In this document: piece after piece, positions 1-13,381 of the stretch
How the letters are laid out: each line of letters begins with the position of its first letter
Numbering within the stretch: position 1 is the first letter of the stretch
From: Gammaproteobacteria bacterium
GTDB taxonomy: Bacteria; Pseudomonadota; Gammaproteobacteria; GRL18
Direction of reading: 5' to 3'
Length of the DNA stretch: 64,000 nt
Assembly (NCBI GenBank): GCA_015488755.1
Contig: WFNB01000120.1
Span: forward strand, 1 to 64,000
Program-made: the position numbers and the translations under genes
The notes under the pieces: model-generated
Told to the model about the DNA's origin: nothing
The model's database searches: none
Seen by the model: only the letters and a program-made list of their open reading frames with translations

Positions 1-768
1 ACTTAATTGTGCTGGAGGGTGAGGCATGGGCAGAGCATTAGCGATGGCCTCTTTGGTAGCCTTCTTCAACACGCTGCGTTTACCATTAATCAGCAGGTTT
101 TTAATTGAGCCATCAGCCAAAAGTGTGAATGAAACCTTAATTTTTCCTTCAATATGTCTTTTTCGAGCAATACGAGGATAGTGTTTATGCGCTCCGATAT
201 GATTTCTAACAAGTTGTTTATAGCTTTTTCGAGTTTGTTCCAGCAAGCGGGGATCAGGTTTTGCCTGTACAGGAGAAATATGGATCGGTTTTGTTGGAAC
301 CTTATCACTATGAGCCACCGCTTTTATTATTGGCTGTTGTTTCAGCAAAGGTTTTTTCTTAACCACTTTAGGGCGTTTTTTTATTTGTGGCTTTTTTTTA
401 AGTTTTTTCTTTGGCTTTTTCTTGATCGTTGGTTTTGGCTTTTGTTTGGCTTGTTTTTTAATGATAGGCTCAGGTTTTTTTTCTACCATTACTTTTTCTT
501 GAATCGGCTCAGGTTTTGGCAACACAATGGGTTCAGGCTTAGGTTGTTCTATTGGCGGCTCAATAACAATAGGGGGAGGAGGGGCGATATTGGCAAAACG
601 TACATGGGTAATGGTTTGCTGAATCACTTGATCAGGTACAGCACTACGGGTTGTTTTTGCCTGAAAAAATAAAAGCAAATGCAAACTTAATGATAAAAAT
701 ATAGCCACAAACCAGATGAGTGTGTTGGAGTGACTCATTGAATGCCAGAGTGAAGGTGCTTGAGTCAT
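1..768 (-). CDS. tonB: TonB energy-transducing protein, C-terminus cut by window edge
   Basis: TonB links the ExbB-ExbD proton motor in the inner membrane to outer-membrane receptors. Translating the minus strand from the ATG at 768 gives an open frame running off the window at base 1 (256 codons seen). It has a short cytoplasmic N-terminus, one membrane anchor (about residues 18-36), then a long periplasmic stretch rich in Pro, Lys and Glu (repeated PKPEP and KKKPK patterns). A C-terminal TonB fold follows, with HYPRIARKRHIEGKIKVSF and LADGSIKN, typical of the family. The start overlaps the exbD stop in an ATGA, so the genes are translationally coupled. The receptor gene at 4739-6952 lies upstream on the same strand and is the obvious client. 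Confidence 0.93.
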   Translation of the reverse strand, partial: MTQAPSLWHSMSHSNTLIWFVAIFLSLSLHLLLFFQAKTTRSAVPDQVIQQTITHVRFANIAPPPPIVIEPPIEQPKPEPIVLPKPEPIQEKVMVEKKPEPIIKKQAKQKPKPTIKKKPKKKLKKKPQIKKRPKVVKKKPLLKQQPIIKAVAHSDKVPTKPIHISPVQAKPDPRLLEQTRKSYKQLVRNHIGAHKHYPRIARKRHIEGKIKVSFTLLADGSIKNLLINGKRSVLKKATKEAIANALPMPHPPAQLS

Positions 769-1214
769 TTGTTTGTGTTAGTTGGCTGTGTTTTTACTGC
801 TTGAGCTGATGACTTAGGTTCCATGGTGACAATATCAACCCCAGAAGCACCGGCTTTACGAGCGGCATCAAATGCACCAATGGCAATACCCAGATCAACA
901 TTTTTATCACCACGAATACGAACCACTTTTTCCGTTTGTTTTTTCAGTTCTTCTATTAATACGGGTTCTAATGCCGCCAAAGGGATGATTTGGCTATTAA
1001 TTGAATATTCCCCCGCTTCGTTAATGATAATTTCAATTTGTTGTGGCTCATCCAGTGCTTCACTGCTTTGCGCTTCGGGTAAATTAATACTTAATACTTC
1101 ATCACGAACAAAGTGTGAGGTCAGCATAAAAAAGACCAAAAGTAAAAAAACAATATCAATTAATGGGGTGAGATTGGGCACATTACTGGTGCGCCTGCGT
1201 CCTTCAAACTGCAT
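765..1214 (-). CDS. exbD: ExbD/TolR-type biopolymer transport protein
   Basis: Small subunit of the TonB-activating proton channel. The sequence has the canonical start MQFEGRRRTSNVPNLTPLID, a single transmembrane helix (IVFLLLVFFMLTS) carrying the membrane Asp of the family (LTPLIDIVF), and a periplasmic domain ending in IVTMEP. I chose the ATG at 1214 because ExbD proteins usually begin just before the FEGRRR motif. A GTG at 1247 in the same frame would add 11 residues. The gene overlaps the exbB end by 11 bases and the tonB start by 4, so exbB-exbD-tonB is one operon. Confidence 0.92.
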   Translation of the reverse strand: MQFEGRRRTSNVPNLTPLIDIVFLLLVFFMLTSHFVRDEVLSINLPEAQSSEALDEPQQIEIIINEAGEYSINSQIIPLAALEPVLIEELKKQTEKVVRIRGDKNVDLGIAIGAFDAARKAGASGVDIVTMEPKSSAQAVKTQPTNTNK

Positions 1215-1884
1215 GGCTAACACCGCTGCGATGGTGGCTTGCCTCACTTTCTTCGGTTAGTGATGGAGAATTGTTTCTAGGAAAATATTCCAGCATTAAA
1301 GAGGCATAATTGCGCATACTATGAGCACGTTTATCCGCGGCTGATTCCAATAAGTGCAATAATAATAATACGGGAATAGCAACCGCCAGACCAACGCCTG
1401 TGGTGAGCATTGCTTCCCATATACCACCTGCTAATGCTTGGGCATCAACTTGTCCCCCTGCTTGCTCAATAACCATAAACGCTTTAATCATGCCGATTAT
1501 TGTGCCTAAAAGTCCCAATAAAGGGGCAGTGTTACCAAGAAATGAGAGTGTGCGAAAGCCTTTTTCCATTTTATTAAGCTCAAAACTACCCAAGCGTATG
1601 GCTACTCGGTTAAGATCCATAATTCCTTCTTTAGAAGCTTGCAACATGCCTTGCAGTAAACGTCCTTCAGGGCCACGCATCTTATTGATAACAGTATCGG
1701 GCTGGCATTCTCTAAGGGCTTTGAGTAAGTGTTGTTCAGCCTGCTTTCCTGGGCGACCCATAAAAGTAAAGCGGATCAGTCGTTCAAATAAAATACTCAG
1801 GGCAATAAATGAGTAGCCTGCTAGTATCCAGACAATAATGCCGCCCTTATCAAATATATCGGTCACAATCATAGTATAATCCAT
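1204..1884 (-). CDS. exbB: ExbB/TolQ-family proton channel protein
   Basis: Pore subunit of the ExbBD motor (MotA/TolQ/ExbB family), 226 residues. Three hydrophobic helices are visible: about residues 14-33, a pair around 112-137 (LSFLGNTAPLLGLLGTIIGM), and 155-178 (LTTGVGLAVAIPVLLLLHLL). These Gly-rich helices are diagnostic. It heads an exbB-exbD-tonB operon, 228 bases downstream of the DsbD-like gene at 2113-2838. It is closer to ExbB than TolQ because tonB rather than tolA follows. Confidence 0.93.
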   Translation of the reverse strand: MDYTMIVTDIFDKGGIIVWILAGYSFIALSILFERLIRFTFMGRPGKQAEQHLLKALRECQPDTVINKMRGPEGRLLQGMLQASKEGIMDLNRVAIRLGSFELNKMEKGFRTLSFLGNTAPLLGLLGTIIGMIKAFMVIEQAGGQVDAQALAGGIWEAMLTTGVGLAVAIPVLLLLHLLESAADKRAHSMRNYASLMLEYFPRNNSPSLTEESEASHHRSGVSHAV

Positions 1885-2112
1885 GCAATAATATGTATAA
1901 GTGTTTGTTGAAAATAATCTAAGTATTTATTTGTGCACAATGGTCGAATTTTAGCATCAAGATTTGTTACGCCTAGAACTAATTATTTTTATATCATGCG
2001 ATATTGAATTTGTTCTAATCGTGTGCAAATCAATCTATTTATTTTGTTTACATCTTAATATGAAGAAATCCAGCAGTATTATATACTGTTTGCTATATAA
2101 TAATAGAATTGC

Positions 2113-2838
2113 TTATACTTGAATCCATCCCAAGCCAGTAAAAATACCTAGAAAAATTAACATAAATCCTGAAAGTTGTTCTATTTTCTTACCCCATTGA
2201 TTTAAATGTTCTTTGATTTGTTGACTGAAATAGGAAATGGCAAAAGCGAAAAATAGACTGGGTATGACAACGGCTCCCAACCCAAATGCAATACCTAATT
2301 TAGCACCACCTACAGGTGTTGCCATAGTGGCTGCTATGGTGAGAATGGTTACCAGTGGAATACACGGATTAAGCGCCATACCTGTACCCATTGCAAATAA
2401 ACTTATTGATAAATATAAGGTGGATTGGGTTTCATTTTTATGTGAAGGTGTTTTATTAAAATAAATGGGCTGCTCATCCTTTATCTTTGCTGAATGATGA
2501 GATGCACAAGACTTTTTATTTGAATAGGCTCCAAAAACCAAATAAATACCAACAAGGGTTGTTGCTATACCAAGAATTTGACTGGCAATACCTTCTTCTA
2601 TCCACTTTGTTGCAGCCAGACCAAAGGCACCGGCAATAGTACCCAATAATGTATACCCTGTTAATCGCCCTAGAGAAAAAGGTATTATGGTTTTCCATGA
2701 TGTTTGCATATTATTTCTGTTCTGTCCTAGAAAAACGGGTCCTAAAAAGGGCAAACAGGTAATATTACACGGACCAGCACCAAAGGTTAGTCCCATAAGC
2801 AATGCAACAGAGAAACTCAATGTTATATCAGCCATCAT
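2113..2838 (-). CDS. DsbD/CcdA- or TauE/UreH-like six-helix membrane protein
   Basis: A polytopic inner-membrane protein of 241 residues with about six transmembrane helices. Helix 1 holds GAGPCNITCLP (Cys24, Cys28) and helix 4 holds ALNPCIPL (Cys159). Paired membrane Cys-Pro motifs of this sort carry electrons across the membrane in CcdA/DsbD proteins. Related TauE/SafE and UreH-like proteins are thought to be transporters, some for nickel. The loop between the halves holds SCASHH, a possible metal site. It overlaps the upstream polyferredoxin gene by 4 bases (ATGA). My inference is a thiol relay or metal permease working with that polyferredoxin. The substrate cannot be told from sequence. 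Confidence 0.7.
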   Translation of the reverse strand: MMADITLSFSVALLMGLTFGAGPCNITCLPFLGPVFLGQNRNNMQTSWKTIIPFSLGRLTGYTLLGTIAGAFGLAATKWIEEGIASQILGIATTLVGIYLVFGAYSNKKSCASHHSAKIKDEQPIYFNKTPSHKNETQSTLYLSISLFAMGTGMALNPCIPLVTILTIAATMATPVGGAKLGIAFGLGAVVIPSLFFAFAISYFSQQIKEHLNQWGKKIEQLSGFMLIFLGIFTGLGWIQV

Positions 2839-3848
2839 TTCTTATGACCTCCAAATAAGGTAATTTTTTCCCATTGAGTCTGAGCTTTTTTACGCTTTTT
2901 AAAATAGCCTGGATCGGAAGATAATATTGGAAAAAATGCATACTTTATTTTTAGTACATCTTTATCGGGACAAAATTCTACACAACGTCCGCATAATGTA
3001 CAGTCGGGATAAATCACATCTTTATTTTCCATGTCTGTATGAATTTCATGTATATCCATTGGACATGATTTAGCACATAAACCACATTTAACACAACGAG
3101 GTTTGGCTTCTTTAACCAACCTCACCAAGCCGATTTTTTTAAAGAGAGTGTTGAGTGATAACATCGGGCAAATCCGACAAAAGGGCTGCCTAACCATTAG
3201 TCCTATAGATATCATTAAGCCAAATAAAAATGTCGCAAGTACTGATAAAATTAAATAGCTCATGGAGCTGGTATCAACGACCAATTCTTTCGTATCTCCA
3301 GTCACCAGTGTCGTTAGAATGCGACTGGGACAGATCCGACAGAATGGATCGCCTAATTCATGTCCTACTACGCCAAAGCCTGCTAATAAAGGGAAAATAA
3401 ATAATAGAAAGATCATTATCAGCCATTTAACTGGACGAGTTTTTGACGTTATATTTTTACTTAATGTTTGAGTTTGTTGAAGTCCCAGTTTTTGTCCAAT
3501 GATATTTAACACTTCTTGAAAGAATCCTAAAGGGCAGATCCAGCCACAAAATGCTTTGCTTAATACAATTAATAGCAACGCAAAAGTACCTAAGGTAATT
3601 GCTGTAGGTAAAAAAGCTTGAATAATGGATCCCCCTGATGAAAGTACAGGAGCTGCATGATGTGCCATCTGATGTTGAAATGAGATTAACGCACAGTGAT
3701 CGGCTGTTTGCATATCATAAGCACAGGCAAGTGCAGGTAAACTACTGGTGAGTTTATCGGCCAGATAATAACCTCCTAAGCCAATACCATACACCATTAC
3801 AATAAAGGCTGTAATTTGAATTAATCGTCTGATGATGGTTAAGTTCAT
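2835..3848 (-). CDS. NapH/FtrD-type membrane polyferredoxin, 4Fe-4S
   Basis: A membrane iron-sulfur protein of 337 residues. About five helices alternate with CxxxCP motifs: CGWICP (101-106), CRICP (170-174) and CRICP (224-228). Two classical 4Fe-4S motifs follow near the C-terminus: CVKCGLCAKSCP (252-263) and CTLCGRCVEFCP (283-294). This layout is that of NapH, NosR C-terminal and FtrD proteins, which take electrons from quinol or NADH-linked donors. It is not the nitrate reductase NapH, which is at 27304-28182. It overlaps both neighbours by 4 bases, between the DUF4198-like gene and the DsbD-like gene. FtrD is known from ferrous iron uptake loci, so a role in metal reduction or uptake is possible. 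Confidence 0.82.
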   Translation of the reverse strand: MNLTIIRRLIQITAFIVMVYGIGLGGYYLADKLTSSLPALACAYDMQTADHCALISFQHQMAHHAAPVLSSGGSIIQAFLPTAITLGTFALLLIVLSKAFCGWICPLGFFQEVLNIIGQKLGLQQTQTLSKNITSKTRPVKWLIMIFLLFIFPLLAGFGVVGHELGDPFCRICPSRILTTLVTGDTKELVVDTSSMSYLILSVLATFLFGLMISIGLMVRQPFCRICPMLSLNTLFKKIGLVRLVKEAKPRCVKCGLCAKSCPMDIHEIHTDMENKDVIYPDCTLCGRCVEFCPDKDVLKIKYAFFPILSSDPGYFKKRKKAQTQWEKITLFGGHKK

Positions 3849-4666
3849 GATGCTCTCCTGGATGCTCTATTATGCTTCCGCATTATAATAATACCGGAAA
3901 GAAAACCGATGGAGAGTGATAATATGCCCCCTATATTTGAATTCCAATGTGATGGATTGACGGAGTAGGGTGCTGAAAAATTTGTTTTATACGTTATGCC
4001 ATGAGAAATATGGACTGTACGTAATATAAATTCTTCAGGTTGATTGGCTCGTCTACCAGGTTGAATGTTTTTAAAATCCTCGGGTAAAATGAAGGAAACC
4101 ATACCATCAATATCTGTTTTTGCATCTAAATTAGAACCATTACTGGTATTCAAAGTAACCCAAGTATCTGCTAGCGGTTTTCCTTTAAATAACACTTTGT
4201 AATTATGATTATTGCTGGTGTAAAAGTGCCAGTGTTCACGGATCATTGGTTCCGGTACAATTTCTAAAGGCAGTTTGTTTTTTTTAATAAGTTTCCTCGG
4301 ACTATAACCTGAAGGTTTATCTCTCATAGAGACATATCTTAAGGATGATTCATAAGTGTTATCTGTTTTTCGCTCAGCAAGTAGTGCATGATAATTATCC
4401 ATTCCCGTTTTAGGTAAAATATATTTGTTGCTATCCTTCTGAGCATTTACTATTTTTATATTCAGAGATGGTGTTATAAATTTAACATGAGCATGGGTAT
4501 TATCATTAAGGTAAAATATTTTTTCCTTAATTCTGTGATTAGTTTGATGTATTTTATGGGTAATTGGGGGTGTCTTTGGTTTTGGAGACCATAATAACTC
4601 CGCATAACAAAGGTGACTGATACTCAGTAGTCCGGATGCAATGAAGATCATATTTTTGTTTTTCAT
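3845..4666 (-). CDS. DUF4198-like secreted or membrane-anchored protein
   Basis: A protein of 273 residues with a signal peptide (MKNKNMIFIASGLLSISHLC, cleavage likely after Ala22). The C-terminal part resembles DUF4198 (PF10670): LPLEIVPEP, then YKVLFKGKPLADTWVTL, then KTDIDGMVSFILPEDF. That family is associated with nickel/cobalt uptake genes in other bacteria. His pairs (58/60 and HWH at 145-147) could bind metal. A last helix (about 247-262) followed by a basic tail should anchor it in the inner membrane. I chose the ATG at 4666, preceded by AAGG 8 bases upstream. A start at 4696 lies inside a perfect hairpin and would place ten residues before the signal peptide. It overlaps the polyferredoxin gene by 4 bases. 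Confidence 0.65.
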   Translation of the reverse strand: MKNKNMIFIASGLLSISHLCYAELLWSPKPKTPPITHKIHQTNHRIKEKIFYLNDNTHAHVKFITPSLNIKIVNAQKDSNKYILPKTGMDNYHALLAERKTDNTYESSLRYVSMRDKPSGYSPRKLIKKNKLPLEIVPEPMIREHWHFYTSNNHNYKVLFKGKPLADTWVTLNTSNGSNLDAKTDIDGMVSFILPEDFKNIQPGRRANQPEEFILRTVHISHGITYKTNFSAPYSVNPSHWNSNIGGILSLSIGFLSGIIIMRKHNRASRRAS

Positions 4667-4680
4667 AGGAGAAACCTTGT

Positions 4681-4721
4681 CTCTACCAAGGTACATATCA
4701 ATTATATGTACCTTGGTAGAG
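4681..4721 (-). repeat. Perfect 18-bp inverted repeat between receptor and DUF4198-like gene
   Basis: The arm CTCTACCAAGGTACATAT at 4681-4698 is matched exactly by its complement at 4704-4721, with a 5-base loop. It lies 17 bases after the receptor stop and 15 before the chosen start of the next gene. No T-run follows in the direction of transcription, so it is not a standard terminator. It may set the receptor to downstream-gene ratio by RNA processing or partial termination. Confidence 0.85.
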
Positions 4722-4738
4722 AAGAATAATGGGCTTAA

Positions 4739-6952
4739 TTAGAATCGTAGAGAAAGGCCAGCAGAGAAGACGATGCCCGGATTTACAACAATTGAGAGAT
4801 CTTCCCCATTGTAAATCCCATCTTCATTAGCATCACGATAGCCACGAGCGGTATTGTAATAATCACGGTTAAACAAATTATCAATACGAGCAAAAATAGA
4901 CCAATCAGCATCACCTATTTTTCGATCATAATTTGCCCAGACATTAAAAATTGCCCGACCACCAATTTTTTCTTGATTGATTTCATCGGCATAATAACTG
5001 GACTGTCCTTCCATTTCTGTTGAAATTGTCCAATATTGAGCGGGGTGTATACGAAAAATTGCATTAAGAGTATGTTTTGACGTTCTTGGTACCTGATTAT
5101 TACCATTGTCATACGGAGTTAAACAATTAGTTAAACGACCACGAGAAAAAACAGGTGATGATCCGGGTGGGCAAGAATGACCTATGGGTGACGTTTTAAG
5201 ATTAAATTCATCATAGGATTTATAGTATGAATCAAGATATGTATAAGTAATATCCCATGAAAACATTTTTTGTATATCACTGCTTATTGCCAATTCTAAG
5301 CCTCGATTTCGTACATCACCAATATTATCATAAACATTATCCGCCGTTGGGCTAATAGTATACTGACCGGCAGATGCTTGAATATAATTATCTCTGTCAA
5401 GTTGAAATATGGAAACATCAATATCATGTGAAATACCAAACAACTGAGTATTCATCCTAAATCCAAGTTCAATATTTAATGATTCTTCAGGGATAAGATC
5501 TTGGTTGGCAGCAACAAAACTGGATGGGTTACTATTTCCTGTAAAGAGTTGAGAAACACTCGGGGTTCTAAAGCCTGTTGATGCATTGGCATAAAGGTCA
5601 ATATTTTTTTGTAATGCATAATTTCCACCAAGCCTGAATGAATTAACATTGAAATTTACATCACCACTTTTTGTAGGCTTCAAGCGGTCTTTATAATCTA
5701 AATCAATATTATCATTACGAGCATTGGCTGTTAAAATGAGTTGTTCAGTTGCCTTGTATTTTAGTTCACCATAAAAAGCAGTCACATTTTCATCTGTTTT
5801 ATTATCTTTGTACCAATCGCCTGTTTTATAACCTCGTCTTGATAGATCATCATCATTTTGCACCATAACTTGATTGTTGTAATCATTGTCACGAAGATCA
5901 ATACCTGCCATCCAAGCAAATTGAGTACCGGAAGATCGATATTCTGACTTTATACCTCGTTGTGTTTGATCATAGTCATTATCAAATGAATATCGGGTAG
6001 GATCATTGTTGATTGGATCGGTATCAAATTTAGTATTATCAGTAAACTGGTAAATATTAAACATAAAATTTGCATCTTCATCGAAATTTTTTGAATAAGT
6101 AGCAAAGAATTTTTTTAAATCAACATCATAGTTATTGGCAAAATCATTATAGGTAAAAATATCTTTACTTTTAGGATCATTTTTTGCGGCTGTTTTCCCT
6201 CGTACTGTGCCATGACTCCCTTTTTCTCTGTTTGCGATTTCCATACCAAGAGTAATATCACTGCTATCATCAATATAATATTGTAGTTTTCCATTGATGT
6301 AATCAGCCTTAGAGTCCGCATCATCATGATAGCCATCAGTCTGTCTGCGAGAAATTTGCAAATGTCCATTCGCTTGTTCGTTCTCAAAGCCTGCTTGTAA
6401 TAGTGCTTTATTGGTATTAAATGATCCGCTTTCCAAATCAACTCTGAAGCCAGCATTATCAGCACCATGTTTAGTGGTAATAATCACTGCACCGGCTAAG
6501 GCATCATCACCAAAAAGGTAGGATGCCCCCCCTTTGATAATTTTAATTGACTCAATATTGTCTAAATCAATATTAACCCGTCCTGTTCGTTCAAAAACAG
6601 GCACCCCATCTATTACAACGGCAACACCAGGTCTTTCTCCCATAAATACTTGATTGTCAACACCACGTATATGGATTTTTAAGGAATCACCATTTTGTAC
6701 TTCAGTGGTTATGCCTGGAATTCGGTGTAACATATCCTGTATGTTTTGAGGATGGTCTTTATCTATTTCCTTACCACTGATAAAACCAATACTTGAAACT
6801 TCATCTCGTTTATTTTCAAAGCGATCATCAATTGCTGTTGATTGAACACTAATCGTTTTTAAATCTTCGGCTAATAGATAAGTAGGACTAAGGGATGATG
6901 AGATCATTAATAGTGTTGGAAATAGTTTTTTATTGGAATGTAAATACAGCAT
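4739..6952 (-). CDS. TonB-dependent outer-membrane receptor
   Basis: A 737-residue gated porin for scarce nutrients. It has a signal peptide ending about Ala28, and a TonB-box-like segment (LKTISVQS) at the mature N-terminus. A plug domain follows, with the family signatures IQDMLHRIPGI, IHIRGVDNQ, VVIDGVPV, IKIIKGGASYLFGDDALAGAVIITT. The beta barrel ends in the classical aromatic terminus (SAGLSLRF). A late loop holds DANEDGIYNGEDL, a calcium-loop-like motif, and another loop carries two Cys (HSCPPG and TNCLT). The ligand is unknown. It heads a co-oriented locus containing its own exbB-exbD-tonB. No Fur-like box or cobalamin riboswitch is evident upstream. Confidence 0.92.
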   Translation of the reverse strand: MLYLHSNKKLFPTLLMISSSLSPTYLLAEDLKTISVQSTAIDDRFENKRDEVSSIGFISGKEIDKDHPQNIQDMLHRIPGITTEVQNGDSLKIHIRGVDNQVFMGERPGVAVVIDGVPVFERTGRVNIDLDNIESIKIIKGGASYLFGDDALAGAVIITTKHGADNAGFRVDLESGSFNTNKALLQAGFENEQANGHLQISRRQTDGYHDDADSKADYINGKLQYYIDDSSDITLGMEIANREKGSHGTVRGKTAAKNDPKSKDIFTYNDFANNYDVDLKKFFATYSKNFDEDANFMFNIYQFTDNTKFDTDPINNDPTRYSFDNDYDQTQRGIKSEYRSSGTQFAWMAGIDLRDNDYNNQVMVQNDDDLSRRGYKTGDWYKDNKTDENVTAFYGELKYKATEQLILTANARNDNIDLDYKDRLKPTKSGDVNFNVNSFRLGGNYALQKNIDLYANASTGFRTPSVSQLFTGNSNPSSFVAANQDLIPEESLNIELGFRMNTQLFGISHDIDVSIFQLDRDNYIQASAGQYTISPTADNVYDNIGDVRNRGLELAISSDIQKMFSWDITYTYLDSYYKSYDEFNLKTSPIGHSCPPGSSPVFSRGRLTNCLTPYDNGNNQVPRTSKHTLNAIFRIHPAQYWTISTEMEGQSSYYADEINQEKIGGRAIFNVWANYDRKIGDADWSIFARIDNLFNRDYYNTARGYRDANEDGIYNGEDLSIVVNPGIVFSAGLSLRF

Positions 6953-7058
6953 AATTACTCACTTAATTAAATTATTTTTCAATAATGCCTTCAGCAATAC
7001 TTATGCCAGAAGATAAGCTACTGATTATGTAGTGAAATAGTCTTTTCCAATATTTTCA

Positions 7059-7100
7059 AAGTGTGTTGTTTCACTGTTTAAGTGTGTTGTTTCACTGTTT
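7059..7100. promoter_or_regulatory. Tandem 21-bp repeat upstream of the receptor, candidate operator
   Basis: Two identical 21-base units sit at 7059-7079 and 7080-7100. Each holds AGTGTGTTGTTTCACT, in which AGTG and CACT form a dyad. A related AGTGAAAT lies at 7031. Units two helical turns apart on the upstream side of the receptor gene fit a binding site for a regulator dimer pair. The regulator is unknown. Confidence 0.5.
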
Positions 7101-7395
7101 TTTTGAGTGAGTACAGGGAACTACAAAGATGAGGGGGTGATTGGGGATTGTTAAACCTAAATAAAGTACCTTTGTGTATTAATTATTTAGGATGAAGTTA
7201 GCTGGATTAACACCAAAAACTCAGTAGACTTATATCCATTCAGTCAAAAGAATTGCCCAGTTTTATAGCTCTCATCGGATATGCTGTCAAATGAGTGTGA
7301 GCCATCCTCTTTGAGTGTTTATTTACCTGAATTCTTGTGTTAAAAAATCCATATAAATAATCGTATCAGGCTATTTTCCACATTGAGCCCAATCA

Positions 7396-7546
7396 CATAC
7401 GTAGGTACTTAAGGATAACTCTGTGTTTACGGAGGAAGTTTTTGCCACATGGATGTGGCAATAAAGCCTCCAGGGATGGATTTACGGCGTCTTGCGTAGT
7501 AAATACAGAGTTATCCTGCCTCAGACATGCTTAAGTACCTACCTAT
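7396..7546. mobile_element. MITE-like element with 17-bp terminal inverted repeats
   Basis: A 151-base non-coding element. The ends ATACGTAGGTACTTAAG (7397-7413) and its complement (7530-7546) match at 16 of 17 bases. A second inner arm pair (7413-7429 with 7500-7516) also matches at 16 of 17. In the centre TGCCACAT and ATGTGGCA form an exact hairpin (7443-7460). An 11-base imperfect direct repeat flanks it (GAGCCCAATCA at 7385-7395, GAGTCCAATCA at 7547-7557), as expected of a target duplication. It shares its core with the element at 62471-62657. The rest of the 6953-7562 gap holds the receptor promoter region. Confidence 0.75.
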
Positions 7547-7562
7547 GAGTCCAATCAAGTTT

Positions 7563-8222
7563 TTAAAATTCTATTAAGCTATCAATGGTTTCTATAATCG
7601 TATCGGCTTGGTAATAGTCTACACTAATAGGCCAATAACTATGATCTAATTTTAGCACCAATGAGGGGTAAGATTGTACCTTCATTTTCTGGCATAGTGC
7701 CAGATGTTGCTCTAAGATCTGATGTGTTTGTAGGGCGCTAAAAACGCTTTGAAAAGCCTTGCGATCCAAACCAATTTGTTTGGCTAGAGCTTCTAATACC
7801 GTATTTTCTGATGGATTAAGAGCCTGCTGGTAATAAGCTGTTTGAATGGCGTCTATCATACGATCTTCATAGTGGTGAGTGTCGTCTGTATCAAACTGAT
7901 GAGCGGCAATAACGGCACGACAAGCAGGATAGGTTGAGCGTCTGGGCTTGCTGACTTGCCAATGTTGCCAGAAATCATAATTAAACTGGGTGTTAGGCAA
8001 TTTCTTTTCAATACGCAACCATGTGTCGTGTAGTTGCTGGCGTAACTCTGCGGACATTGGTTCTTGAGTATCGCCAGCCAAACCACCCAATAGGCTAGTA
8101 AATTCTAAGGCATCTGCGTATTGCTTGCTTAATTGTAAACGCAATTGTTGTAATACGGGTTTGAATGCATAACACCAACTACACATGGGATCATGAATGT
8201 AAAAAAGCGTGTTTTTTGTCAT
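7563..8222 (-). CDS. DsbA-family thiol-disulfide protein (FrnE-like)
   Basis: A 219-residue thioredoxin-fold protein. The N-terminus reads LFYIHDPMCSWCYAFKP with a CSWC redox pair about residues 15-18, then a long helical insertion and a late Pro-containing strand (VQSYPSLVLK), as in the DsbA/FrnE group. There is no signal peptide, so it should be cytoplasmic, unlike true DsbA. It starts 9 bases after the metH stop on the same strand and is likely co-transcribed with metH. A redox-related role beside methionine synthase is only an association. Confidence 0.82.
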   Translation of the reverse strand: MTKNTLFYIHDPMCSWCYAFKPVLQQLRLQLSKQYADALEFTSLLGGLAGDTQEPMSAELRQQLHDTWLRIEKKLPNTQFNYDFWQHWQVSKPRRSTYPACRAVIAAHQFDTDDTHHYEDRMIDAIQTAYYQQALNPSENTVLEALAKQIGLDRKAFQSVFSALQTHQILEQHLALCQKMKVQSYPSLVLKLDHSYWPISVDYYQADTIIETIDSLIEF

Positions 8223-8231
8223 AGTGGTAGT

Positions 8232-11200
8232 CTAATAACTCAAAACGGGTGATAACCATCGTTCGGCTTCACTTATTGATATTCCTTTACGCTGGGCGTA
8301 GTCGGTAACTTGATCCTTATGAATTTTTCCAGTGCCAAAATAACGTGCCTGAGGATGAGAAAAATACAAGCCAGATACGGCAGCCGCAGGCATCATGGCA
8401 TAGCTGCTGGTCAGTTCAATACCAGTTTGCTCTTTAACGGCCATTAATTCCCATAAGGTGGCTTTTTCTGTGTGATCAGGGCAGGCAGGGTAGCCTGGTG
8501 CAGGGCGAATGCCTTGGTATTGTTCAGTGATTAGCTCAGCATTTGTTAACTGTTCATCTTGGGCATAGCCCCAATAGTGTTTTCGTACTTGTTCATGCAT
8601 GGTTTCTGCAAAGGCTTCGGCTAATCGATCGGCCAGTGCTTTGAGCATAATAGACTGATAGTCATCATGTTCGGCTTCAAATTCAGCTAATTTTGTTTCA
8701 ATGCCAATACCGGTTGTGACAGCAAAAGTACCAATATAATCAGCAATACCGCTGTCCTTTGGTGCAATGGTATCGGCAAGGCATTGATTGTATTTGCCTT
8801 GCGGCTTTTTCATCTGTTGGCGCAAAAAATGAAAACGTGTTAATACCTCTTTACGAGAGTCGTCTTTATAGAGTTCAATGTCATCATCATTGATGCTATT
8901 TGCAGGGTAAAAGCCAATGATCGCATTAGCACTGAGCCATTTTTGGGCAATAATTTTATCCAGCATGGTGGTGGCATCTTGGTAAACCTTACGTGCTTCA
9001 ACACCATATTTTTCATTATCTAAAATGGCAGGGAAACGTCCTTTGAGCTCCCATGTCTGAAAGAAAGGTCCCCAATCAATGCGCTCTTTTAAGTCACTTA
9101 ATGGGAAGTCAATAAAGGTTTTGGTGCCTAGAAAGCTAGGCTTATTGGTTAAATCAGTATTGTGAACCCAGCTAATTGGTAACTTGTTTTGTCGAGCCTG
9201 AGCCAGTGTCATTTGATTTTTCTTGCTGGTTTTTTTTGCTCTGGCATCTCGAATAGCTTGGTAATCTTTTTTAATTGAGGCAACAAAGTCTTTTTTTAAT
9301 GCCTTAGATAACAAGCTTTGACTAACGCCAACAGCACGAGAAGCATCGCTAACATGTATGACTGGGTGCTCATATTCGGGTTCGATTTTAACTGCTGTAT
9401 GAATGCTAGAGGTTGTTGCACCACCGAGCATAATAGGAATAGTAAAATTTTGGCGTTGCATTTCTTTAGCAATGTGTACCATTTCATCCAGTGAGGGAGT
9501 GATTAGGCCTGACAGACCGATAATATCGCAATTTTCTGCTTTGGCTGTTTTTAGAATATCTTCGGCAGGAACCATAACTCCCATATCGATGACTTCAAAA
9601 TTATTGCATTGTAAAACGACACCTACAATGTTTTTTCCAATATCATGCACATCCCCTTTAACGGTGGCCATTAATATTTTACCATTATTAGAAATGATGC
9701 TTTGGTCTTTTTCAGCAGCGGCAGCTTTTTGTGCTTCAATATAAGGCATGAGCCAAGCAACGGCTTTTTTCATGACTCGAGCTGATTTGACGACTTGGGG
9801 TAAAAACATTTTACCGCTGCCAAATAAATCACCTACGGTATTCATACCATCCATTAAGGGCCCCTCGATGACTTCAATTGGCTCTGCAAAAGTCAGGCGT
9901 GCTTCTTCGGTATCTTCATCAATATAATCGGTAATACCTTTGACTAAGGCATGGCTGAGTCGCTCAGCAACATCTAACTCACGCCATGAGAGATCCACCA
10001 CACGACCTTTGCCACCAATAGCATCACCTCGGTAATCTTCGGCAATCTCTAATAGGGCATCGGTGGCATTAGGACTACGGTTTAGCACCACGTCCTCTAC
10101 CTTATCTCGTAATACCGTAGGGATGTCATCGTAAATAGCTAATTGCCCAGCATTAACAATGCCCATATCCATACCTGCTTGAATGGCGTGGTAGAGGAAG
10201 ACCGCATGAATTGCTTCACGTACTGGATTATTGCCTCGAAAGGAAAATGAGACATTGGATACACCACCCGATACTTTGGCATAGGGTAATGTTTGTTTAA
10301 TAATACGGGTGGCTTCAATAAAATCCACACCATAATTGTTATGTTCATCAATACCCGTTGCAACGGCAAAAATATTTGGGTCAAAAATAATATCTTCAGG
10401 AGGAAAACCGACCTGTTCAGTTAAAATGGTGTAGGAACGGGTACAAATATCAATTTTACGTTGCTGGGTATCGGCTTGCCCATCTTCATCAAAGGCCATA
10501 ACAATAGCAGCTGCACCGTAGCGACGTATTAAATTAGCATGGTGAATAAATCGCTCTTCCCCTTCTTTAAGGCTAATGGAATTGACAATACCTTTGCCTT
10601 GTATACACTTTAAGCCAGCCTCAATCACTTCCCATTTGGAAGAATCAACCATAATGGGTACTTTGGCGATTTCTGGTTCGGCAGCGATTAAATTAAGAAA
10701 TTTAGTCATGGCAGAGACACCATCGAGCATGGCCTCGTCCATATTAATATCAATGATCTGAGCACCACTTTCAACTTGTTGCTGGGCAACAGAAATGGCT
10801 TCTTCGTAGTTTTCTTCTTTAATCAAACGTAGAAAGCGAGCAGAGCCGGTGACATTGGTACGTTCACCAATATTCACAAAGAGTGAGTTTTCATCAATGC
10901 TAAAGGGTTCTTGGCCTGAAAGTCGACATGGTCGTTTAGCTTGTGTGATGTCGGGGATCTTTCTTGGTGGGTGTTTTTCGATGACCGCTTTTATAGCTTG
11001 TATGGTCTCGGGTGAGGTACCACAGCAGCCACCAATAATATTAATAAAGCCAGATTCTGCCCACTCTTCTAATTGCTCGGCCATTTCTTCTGGAGATTCA
11101 TCATAACCACCCAATTCATTAGGTAGGCCGGCATTAGGGTGAGCGGATACGGCACAGTGGGCAAGACTGGATAATTCTTTAACATAAGCACGCAGTTCAT

Positions 11201-12014
11201 CAGCACCAAGGGCACAGTTAAGGCCAATGGATATGGGATGGGCATGGTTCAGAGCGTTATAAAAAGCCTCTGTGGTTTGACCTGATAGGGTACGACCTGA
11301 TTTATCAGTGATGGTACCTGAGATCATAATGGGATATTCGATAGTATGATCATCAAAATATTTTTTAACCGCAAAGACTGCTGCTTTGGCATTCAGCGTA
11401 TCGAAAATGGTTTCGATTAATAGGATATCAGCACCACCTTCAATTAACCCTTTGGTGGCATCATAGTAGGCATCGACTAGCTGATCAAAGGTGACATTGC
11501 GAAAACTGGGATCATTAACATCAGGAGAAATACTAGCAGTACGATTGGTGGGGCCAAGAACCCCAGCAACAAAACGTACTAAGCCATCTTTTTCTGCTGC
11601 TTCATTGGCTGCCTCACGGGCGATTTGTGCCGATGCAACATTCATCTCATAAGCCAAATCTTCCATGTTGTAGTCAGCCATAGCGATAGTGGTCGAGCTA
11701 AAGGTATTGGTTTCAATGATGTCAGCACCGGCATTGAGATATTGGCTATGGATACTTTTAATGATGTCTGGTTGAGTAATTGAGAGTAAATCATTATTGC
11801 CTTTGACATCAGAAGGCCAGTCTTTAAAACGCGTGCCTCGATAATCGGCTTCAGTGAGATTATATTGTTGGATCATAGTGCCCATAGCACCATCTAAAAA
11901 CAAAATACGTTCTTTGAGTTGGGCTGTTAATAAGGAAAAATGTTTGCTCTGATTTTTCTTAGAAACCAAGTTCTTAGAAGCCAATGGTGTAACAGAAGAA
12001 GTATTTGAAGGCAT
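8232..12014 (-). CDS. metH: Cobalamin-dependent methionine synthase
   Basis: Transfers a methyl group from methyltetrahydrofolate to homocysteine via methylcobalamin. At 1260 residues it has the full four-module layout. The homocysteine domain begins at [13 protein letters not shown], with zinc Cys in IGLNCALG and IIGGCCGTS. The pterin domain has [11 protein letters not shown]. The cobalamin domain has [15 protein letters not shown], with the axial His. The C-terminal reactivation domain carries the S-adenosylmethionine motif [15 protein letters not shown]. The first 30 residues are a poorly conserved extension, so the start could be a little later. No cobalamin riboswitch was recognised upstream, only a hairpin at 12039-12076. 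Confidence 0.98.
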
Positions 12015-12038
12015 GCGATGAACCCATTTGTATTGATA

Positions 12039-12076
12039 CCCAAGCCACTTGAAACTATCTTTTCAAGTGGTTTGGG
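12039..12076. repeat. Hairpin in the metH leader
   Basis: The arm CCCAAGCCACTTGAAA (12039-12054) pairs with 12061-12076 at 15 of 16 positions around a 6-base loop. It lies 25 bases upstream of the metH start. No T-run follows. It could be a dispersed repeat, a leader structure or an end signal for the small gene at 12225-12647. Confidence 0.6.
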
Positions 12077-12224
12077 ATATGCTAAAAAATATCGTTTGAA
12101 AAATGTCTACTGAACCGATCATTTTAGCAGGAATTGGGTAGTGTGTAGTCTTTTTTTCTGAATTTGCTCTTAATTATTGCTTATTTTGATAGATGGTATG
12201 AATAAAGTGAGTGCTATCACCATT

Positions 12225-12647
12225 TTAGTGAGTATGGGGGACAATATACTGCAAAATACCTTCTAATAATGTGTGATCAGGTAAGGAGGCAAAGATAAAA
12301 AACATCCAGATAGGGGCAAAGATAAGTGAGTATAGGCGTAACATCCAATTGGATTGCTCCTGCCACCATTGTGCCATAGAATCAAGACTTTCATCTGACA
12401 TAAAAGGCATGGTCATGCCTAAAAAGATAACGGCAATGCCTAAAAAGAGCATCATATTGGGGAAGCCGGTAAAGGGGGCTGCGGCAATAATAATAAAGCC
12501 CATGAGCATGCGTAAAACAATTACGGCATTGATCCATCGAGGTGAAAAAAAGAAAAAGAGAATTTTTTTCATAGGCGCAGTAAAGAAAAACAGCATAATA
12601 CTAATAAGAAACAGGATGCTGGCGATGGAAGTGATTACATAGGCCAT
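12225..12647 (-). CDS. Small four-helix membrane protein of unknown function
   Basis: A 140-residue hydrophobic protein that I do not recognise. It shows four membrane segments: about residues 5-24, 42-60, 65-83 and 107-124. A polar segment between helices 3 and 4 (SDESLDSMAQWWQEQSNW) should be exposed. A similar layout is common in conserved hypothetical inner-membrane proteins of marine gammaproteobacteria. It lies between the HAD phosphatase gene and metH, all on the minus strand, but gaps of 35 and 210 bases leave the operon uncertain. Confidence 0.6.
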   Translation of the reverse strand: MAYVITSIASILFLISIMLFFFTAPMKKILFFFFSPRWINAVIVLRMLMGFIIIAAAPFTGFPNMMLFLGIAVIFLGMTMPFMSDESLDSMAQWWQEQSNWMLRLYSLIFAPIWMFFIFASLPDHTLLEGILQYIVPHTH

Positions 12648-12682
12648 TAAATAAAGAGTCTCCGAATAATTCGATGACTTGA

Positions 12683-13381
12683 TTATAACGCCTTAAGAAT
12701 TGCTGGCAATTGATTTAATTGATCTATCTCTATGAAAGGTGAATTAAGTTCTTTTGGCCAAGTTGTTTTATTACGATTTAGCCAAATTGCCTGAATGCCC
12801 GATTGCTGAGCGCCTTGAATATCGCTAATGGGATCATCACCAATATGAATAATTTTATTTGCGCCTAGCTGACATTTTTGCATCAGAGAATGAAAAACGA
12901 TAGGGTGTGGCTTTTGTTTGCCCGCATCGGCTGCTGACCAAGAAAATTTGAATAAATGTCCCAGTCCTACTTGGTTAATATCGGCATTGCCATTACTAAG
13001 AGCTACTAAATCATAGTGTTTATTTAATATCTCTAAGGTTGGCAGTACATCACTATAGAGACTGACTTTATTGCGTTCTTTAAAGTAAAAACTAAAAGCA
13101 TCATGAATAAACTGTTGTTGTTGCTCGCTAGAATAGCCCATCTCATGAGCCAGTTCGGCAAAAGAGTGCTTTCTGAGGGCACTTAAATCATGTGCAATAT
13201 GAGGATATTGCTGAGCCAATTTTTGACGTTTGTTACGTAAGTCTATTATTGAATAGTGTTCACTAATAAATGAGTGATGGTGAGTAAACCATTGGTGCAG
13301 TTTTGTTTCTGTTTGTTGTATGGTTGCTAAGCAGGGCCACAACGTGTCATCTAAATCAAAAGTCAGTAATTTGATGGTCAT
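12683..13381 (-). CDS. HAD-superfamily hydrolase (YjjG/YigB-like)
   Basis: A 232-residue cytoplasmic phosphatase of the haloacid dehalogenase superfamily. Motif I is FDLDDTLWP (Asp nucleophile and acid-base Asp), motif II is ALSNGNAD, motif III Lys lies in KQKPHP, and motif IV is HIGDDPISDI. An alpha-helical cap lies between motifs I and II, as in FMN or nucleotide phosphatases. I start it at the ATG at 13381. The frame stays open upstream to 13543, but that part reads through the tRNA-Asp gene and is not protein. The substrate is not certain. Confidence 0.88.
   Translation of the reverse strand: MTIKLLTFDLDDTLWPCLATIQQTETKLHQWFTHHHSFISEHYSIIDLRNKRQKLAQQYPHIAHDLSALRKHSFAELAHEMGYSSEQQQQFIHDAFSFYFKERNKVSLYSDVLPTLEILNKHYDLVALSNGNADINQVGLGHLFKFSWSAADAGKQKPHPIVFHSLMQKCQLGANKIIHIGDDPISDIQGAQQSGIQAIWLNRNKTTWPKELNSPFIEIDQLNQLPAILKAL

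Follow-up and report, generated by a model that had tools for sequence, protein, structure and literature searches.

A TonB-dependent uptake locus with a membrane redox module in a gammaproteobacterial genome, a candidate system for copper acquisition

Which substrate is taken up by a TonB-dependent receptor that is encoded together with two membrane redox proteins and an energizer of its own? The question is raised by seven co-directional genes on the minus strand, positions 1-6952, of contig WFNB01000120.1 (Gammaproteobacteria bacterium, lineage GRL18, assembly GCA_015488755.1; the window analysed here comprises positions 1 to 64,000). Copper acquisition by Gram-negative bacteria is poorly known. 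The gene set, hereafter the module, is read here with moderate confidence as a TonB-dependent copper-acquisition system with a built-in membrane reductase. Copper as the substrate is the surer part of this reading, the predicted copper-reductase chemistry the less certain one.

The seven genes are those named in the original prediction, and each assignment has an open reading frame and Pfam support. The DUF4198 match remains below its gathering score, hence the suffix '-like'. The features are as follows.

4739..6952, minus strand: TonB-dependent outer-membrane receptor, 737 amino acids, receptor group A; Pfam plug and beta-barrel domains over cut-off
4681..4721, minus strand: perfect 19-base-pair (bp) hairpin without T-tract, between the receptor gene and the DUF4198-like gene; fold z-score -7.2
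3845..4696, minus strand: DUF4198-like periplasmic protein with C-terminal membrane anchor; PF10670, 28.8 bits
2835..3848, minus strand: NapH-like four-helix polyferredoxin; Fer4_5, Fer4_10 and conserved residues
2113..2838, minus strand: DsbD_2 (CcdA/DsbD-like) membrane protein; PF13386, 82.6 bits
1204..1884, minus strand: ExbB; PF01618
765..1247, minus strand: ExbD; PF02472
1..768, minus strand: TonB, truncated by the contig end; PF03544

TonB is completed at 270 amino acids by contig C75, which overlaps the window start with 97 identical bp. From the receptor gene to tonB the intergenic gaps are 42, -4, -4, 228, -44 and -4 bases. The inner genes had been described as overlapping by four bases or closely spaced; the overlaps are real (DUF4198-like/polyferredoxin, polyferredoxin/DsbD_2 and ExbD/TonB), but the DsbD_2 gene and exbB lie 228 bp apart, and because of this gap exbB-exbD-tonB may be a second transcript. 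As previously noted, no ATP-binding cassette (ABC) transporter or classic permease is encoded in the module, as judged by a Pfam scan.

The receptor, DUF4198-like, polyferredoxin, DsbD_2, ExbB, ExbD and TonB genes recur as a set in about 30 sampled loci of Pseudomonadota from many families, and the neighbourhood is therefore not a product of chance; the scattering of homologues that would have spoken against a functional unit did not occur. A protein search of named genomes with the polyferredoxin returned 13 good relatives (gammaproteobacterial metagenome-assembled genomes, Neptuniibacter and Neptunomonas) and a short, weak 14th match. The DUF4198-like gene is present in 13/13 of these relatives and the DsbD_2 gene in 12/13, in the same order; the remaining locus, L012, ends within the polyferredoxin gene. 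Neptuniibacter and Neptunomonas are cultured bacteria, and their module forms an uninterrupted run of six genes. By profile search the DUF4198-like protein was detected in 14/369 genomes of the class and 31/398 of the phylum. Wider sampling, by order, yielded just one genome each for G034 and G014.

In the window, the plug and barrel of the receptor as well as ExbB, ExbD and TonB exceed the Pfam cut-offs within one neighbourhood, which makes this a TonB-dependent uptake system that has an energizer of its own. The earlier description of the energizer as dedicated is borne out mainly by the distant loci. In more distant families exbB-exbD-tonB is contiguous with the core, often overlapping it, and orthologues of ExbB follow the DsbD_2 gene in L013-L017, L041, L044, L046, L110, L112 and L115, with ExbD in the same context. 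In the closest relatives with enough flanking sequence (L006, L007, L009-L011) the three genes do not adjoin the four-gene core. In family f207 the energizer genes are placed first. In locus L091 the DsbD_2 gene and exbB have between them the gene of another TonB receptor, unlike the first (5995-8082).

Module receptors belong to three exchangeable groups, so that the inner genes, and not the receptor, form the constant part of the module. Group A receptors are common to modules of other classes at 44-56% identity. The window receptor reaches the cut-off of no NCBIfam equivalog model, the curated vitamin B12, siderophore and copper types included; a clustering with a known vitamin B12 or siderophore family, which had been considered, was thus not found. 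Its nearest solved structures are YncD/PqqU, which are distant, and phmmer gave no match to the CrtA structures 9RVQ/9RVX at 1e-5; a group B receptor matches these structures partially, at 4e-14. All three groups score highest with generic models for siderophore and haem receptors, without reaching the cut-offs. By sequence, the receptor does not itself name copper.

The polyferredoxin is predicted to span the membrane with four helices, as judged by hydropathy and charge. In the predicted topology, a first periplasmic loop between helices 1 and 2 contains C42, C52 and Q58-H59-Q60, a second periplasmic loop contains C170 and C173, and the cytoplasmic side carries CxxxCP, CxxCP and two 4Fe-4S motifs. 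All 27 aligned module polyferredoxins have C42, C52 and H59, which the NapH-type paralogue of the host genome lacks. That paralogue, located in the host's nos (nitrous oxide reductase) gene cluster, passes the NapH/MauN model TIGR02163 (243 bits, cut-off 213), which the window protein fails with 71.5 bits. The DsbD_2 protein matches PF13386 with 82.6 bits against a cut-off of 24.9. Its cysteines C24, C28 and C159, in the contexts CxxxCxP and PCxPL, are invariant in 22 homologues, one of which also passes DsbD_TM.

The DUF4198-like gene probably starts at the ATG at 4666, ahead of a signal peptide. Its product scores 28.8 bits with PF10670 (gathering score 34), and its AlphaFold2 model (predicted local distance difference test, pLDDT, 76) matches the fold of Zcp. 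The closest folds are the Zcp structures 9mhl, 9mhm and 9mhn (Foldseek E about 5e-9, TM-score 0.5-0.6, identity about 13%), which were determined with Zn, Cu or Co. The window protein differs from Zcp by its C-terminal membrane helix. YH and PREH motifs are conserved; many homologues have a His-rich N-terminus, and there is no conserved cysteine. The association of DUF4198 with nickel is not diagnostic, because DUF4198 proteins of Caulobacter are Fur-regulated (PMC3751524), gonococcal zcp is regulated by zinc and Zur (PMC13343924), and the sequence match to NikK is weak (E = 0.096). Redox-coupled metal import, as originally suggested, is well supported by the conserved neighbourhood, the Zcp-like metal-binding fold and the two membrane proteins with invariant cysteines.

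Copper is indicated by genes that adjoin the module elsewhere. In L041, L051 and L110 the gene directly downstream of tonB, on the same strand, encodes a PCu(A)C copper chaperone; the three loci come from two families, and since L051 and L110 share one of them the safe count of independent events is two. With an assumed density of 2.5 such genes in 3,500, about 0.02 neighbours of this kind are expected over 30 loci, a rough figure. In L093 a TonB-copper receptor of the NosA/OprC type (TIGR01778; 638 bits, cut-off 472) lies directly upstream of the module on the same strand, and in L043 the module lies inside a nos cluster that includes nosZ. L086 has a copper-receptor-like gene that scores below cut-off. 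The copper-linked loci are spread over all three clades of the polyferredoxin tree, L041, L043 and L110 being among the nearer relatives of the window protein. Among 130 proteins neighbouring modules elsewhere, the 25 commonest families include no iron-transport family, and neither P19 nor FTR1.

The arrangement in L043 prompted a test of co-occurrence with NosZ. NosZ is present in 11/14 module genomes and in 47/355 others (p = 1.5e-7); without the genome of L043 the former count is 10/13. At family level, with approximate family counts, the figures are 8/10 and about 30/172 (p = 6e-5). In the phylum sample without f207 they are 11/17 and 49/367 (p = 3e-6), and with f207 included p rises to 0.003. 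All these statistics carry phylogenetic dependence. The host genome G000 has a complete-looking clade II (Sec-dependent) nos cluster (L107, 7782-18733, contig C122) and no TIGR01778 receptor. The idea that the module replaces NosA was rejected: TIGR01778 receptors occur in 7/21 genomes with module and NosZ versus 9/47 NosZ genomes without the module, with no mutual exclusion.

Several observations weigh against copper. No copper gene adjoins the module in the window or in most loci, and copper genes were singled out post hoc, only after PCu(A)C had been noticed. The window receptor gives no match to TIGR01778 (cut-off 472 bits), and no copper-responsive promoter or leader open reading frame was found. 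Inside the window's own family the association with NosZ is not significant (8/9 versus 8/15), and all 14 of the 14 sampled module genomes of f207 are without NosZ, which therefore cannot be the sole client. The link with NosZ may stem not from copper but from life under anaerobic or microoxic conditions. The AlphaFold2 model of the polyferredoxin failed (pLDDT 34), so that the topology of this protein is drawn from hydropathy and charge only.

If copper is the substrate, the receptor would import chelated Cu(II), and the DUF4198-like protein would bind the metal or the chelate in the periplasm and pass it to the polyferredoxin. The latter would move electrons across the membrane, from the quinol pool or the cytoplasm, reducing Cu(II) to Cu(I) and releasing it from the chelate, while the DsbD_2 protein might hold periplasmic thiols reduced or carry part of the electron flow. 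Periplasmic chaperones, PCu(A)C for example, would then receive the Cu(I) and deliver it to NosZ and haem-copper oxidases; this would account for the lack of an encoded inner-membrane metal permease.

No published description or name for this combination of genes was found in the literature searched, in agreement with the original prediction, which could match it to no named system. Its nearest counterpart is the copper-acquisition operon of Bordetella pertussis, which encodes the TonB receptor CrtA and the putative reductase CrpH (PMC12914433, PMC13038864). There, too, a receptor for chelated copper stands beside a membrane protein proposed as a periplasmic copper reductase, and some operons add ExbBD-TonB and PCuAC. 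However, CrpH is a haem protein of the PepSY_TM type, whereas the module has an Fe-S polyferredoxin and a DsbD_2 protein; Pfam detected no PepSY domain in the module, which is therefore not an operon of the CrtA/CrpH type, and no cruR-like leader (DUF2946/CruR-like open reading frame) was found upstream of the window receptor. NosA/OprC likewise provides an outer-membrane copper route serving NosZ, but is a lone receptor without a reductase set, and the window receptor belongs to another family. CcoG, an Fe-S protein that reduces Cu(II) and not Fe(III) (PMC7558416), resembles the polyferredoxin as a membrane protein with two 4Fe-4S clusters tied to the copper supply of an oxidase. It differs in its C-terminal immunoglobulin-like periplasmic domain, which the window protein does not have, its C-terminal part being the cytoplasmic Fe-S region; the window protein has instead the Cys/His loop predicted on the periplasmic side, between its first two helices. 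Clusters of the PepSY type with DUF2271, ApbE and DUF4198 (PMC8238504, PMC3751524) share with the module a TonB receptor, a secreted DUF4198 protein and a transmembrane electron carrier, but the module has no PepSY, ApbE, DUF2271 or flavin mononucleotide-binding domain, and its electron carrier is an Fe-S protein. By analogy, the module would follow the logic of CrtA/CrpH and of CcoG with different proteins.

Nickel or cobalt and iron had been the original leads, together with a search for shared upstream motifs. Neither lead was borne out: in 49 upstream regions, Fur-, Zur-, NikR- and CueR-like sites numbered 1, 3, 0 and 1 at p <= 0.05, no excess, and it is copper genes that accompany the module in other loci. 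Reductive iron uptake, in which the receptor would import a ferric siderophore, the polyferredoxin and DsbD_2 protein would reduce it in the periplasm, and Fe(II) would enter by a separate transporter, e.g. FeoB, is considered unlikely. It would agree with the generic siderophore and haem models that score best with all three receptor groups, below cut-off, with the Fur-regulated DUF4198 genes of Caulobacter (PMC3751524) and with the proposal that PepSY-type clusters with DUF4198 are iron reductases (PMC8238504). It does not agree with the lack of Fur-like enrichment or of iron-transport families among the commonest neighbours, nor with copper genes being the non-core genes tied to the module; P19 and FTR1 genes, expected of FtrABCD or P19-FTR1 iron uptake, are not found within it.

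Uptake of zinc, nickel or cobalt, with DUF4198 as the metal binder and the redox proteins just keeping thiols reduced, appears somewhat less likely again. The closest fold is Zcp, encoded by a zinc- and Zur-regulated gene in the gonococcus (PMC13343924), and NikK is a weak sequence relative, but these metals need no redox step, Zur- and NikR-like sites are not enriched, and the module contains no energy-coupling factor (ECF) or ABC component of the kind used in NikMNQO-type nickel/cobalt uptake. The side-branch locus L111 lies near znu-like genes, named by eye and not by profile; they are oriented opposite to the module, the znuA-like gene facing it, and this zinc link was judged incidental. 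The least probable alternative dispenses with metal uptake altogether: the redox proteins would supply electrons to a periplasmic enzyme, e.g. NosZ, or the receptor would import a redox cofactor such as pyrroloquinoline quinone (PQQ). In its favour, NapH-type proteins act as electron donors of periplasmic reductases (PMC8238504), YncD and the PQQ transporter are the solved receptors nearest to that of the window, and NosZ co-occurs with the module. Against this, the host's nos cluster encodes a separate, true NapH-family protein, the module persists in f207 genomes that lack NosZ, and PCu(A)C and the copper receptor would be left unexplained.

A wider form of the copper reading is put forward only tentatively. 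The polyferredoxin and DsbD_2 protein would be an unrecognised class of periplasm-facing cupric reductase which, with exchangeable TonB receptors, performs reductive copper import and can supply NosZ as well as haem-copper oxidases where NosA is lacking, one branch perhaps being ATP-driven. This branch of the polyferredoxin tree comprises the following loci, in which the module is joined by a protein of the 2-hydroxyacyl-CoA-dehydratase type.

L051: 10132-13853
L111: 5468-10609
L114: 3098-10376
L019 (Sulfurovum plasmid record): 9971-13040

The dehydratase-type protein of L051 scores 362 bits with the double-cubane reductase model, whose cut-off is 350, and an activase ATPase is added in L051, after the double-cubane-type protein, and in L019. 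The pair hints at ATP-driven low-potential electrons. Genome G774 holds both L110, a full module of the window type with PCu(A)C, and L111, a double-cubane-type variant. In f207, all four loci read (L085-L088) encode an extra secreted protein with a Cys/His-rich N-terminus between the receptor and the DUF4198-like gene, a possible metal-binding partner; the copy in L086 carries an LTXXQ domain.

Upstream of the module are a DsbA-like gene and a gene read as metH. FNR-like sites are slightly enriched, 6 against about 1.7 expected in 47 regions, which is too weak to use. The hairpin at 4681-4721 is possibly an element of messenger RNA processing or stability. A hairpin occupies the same gap in the close relatives L006, L007, L009, L010 and L012, where both stem and loop have diverged, and no Rfam match was found in window positions 1-13000. 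A perfect 21-bp tandem duplication lies upstream of the receptor gene (7059-7100). Between the DsbA-like and receptor genes (7396-7547) are two imperfect inverted repeats, one nested in the other, which may be a mobile palindromic repeat; the window has no second copy.

Being widespread, conserved and statistically tied to NosZ, the module is a concrete candidate for copper uptake, and may be one copper route for nitrous-oxide-reducing bacteria. NosZ removes nitrous oxide, and its copper supply therefore bears on the turnover of a greenhouse gas.

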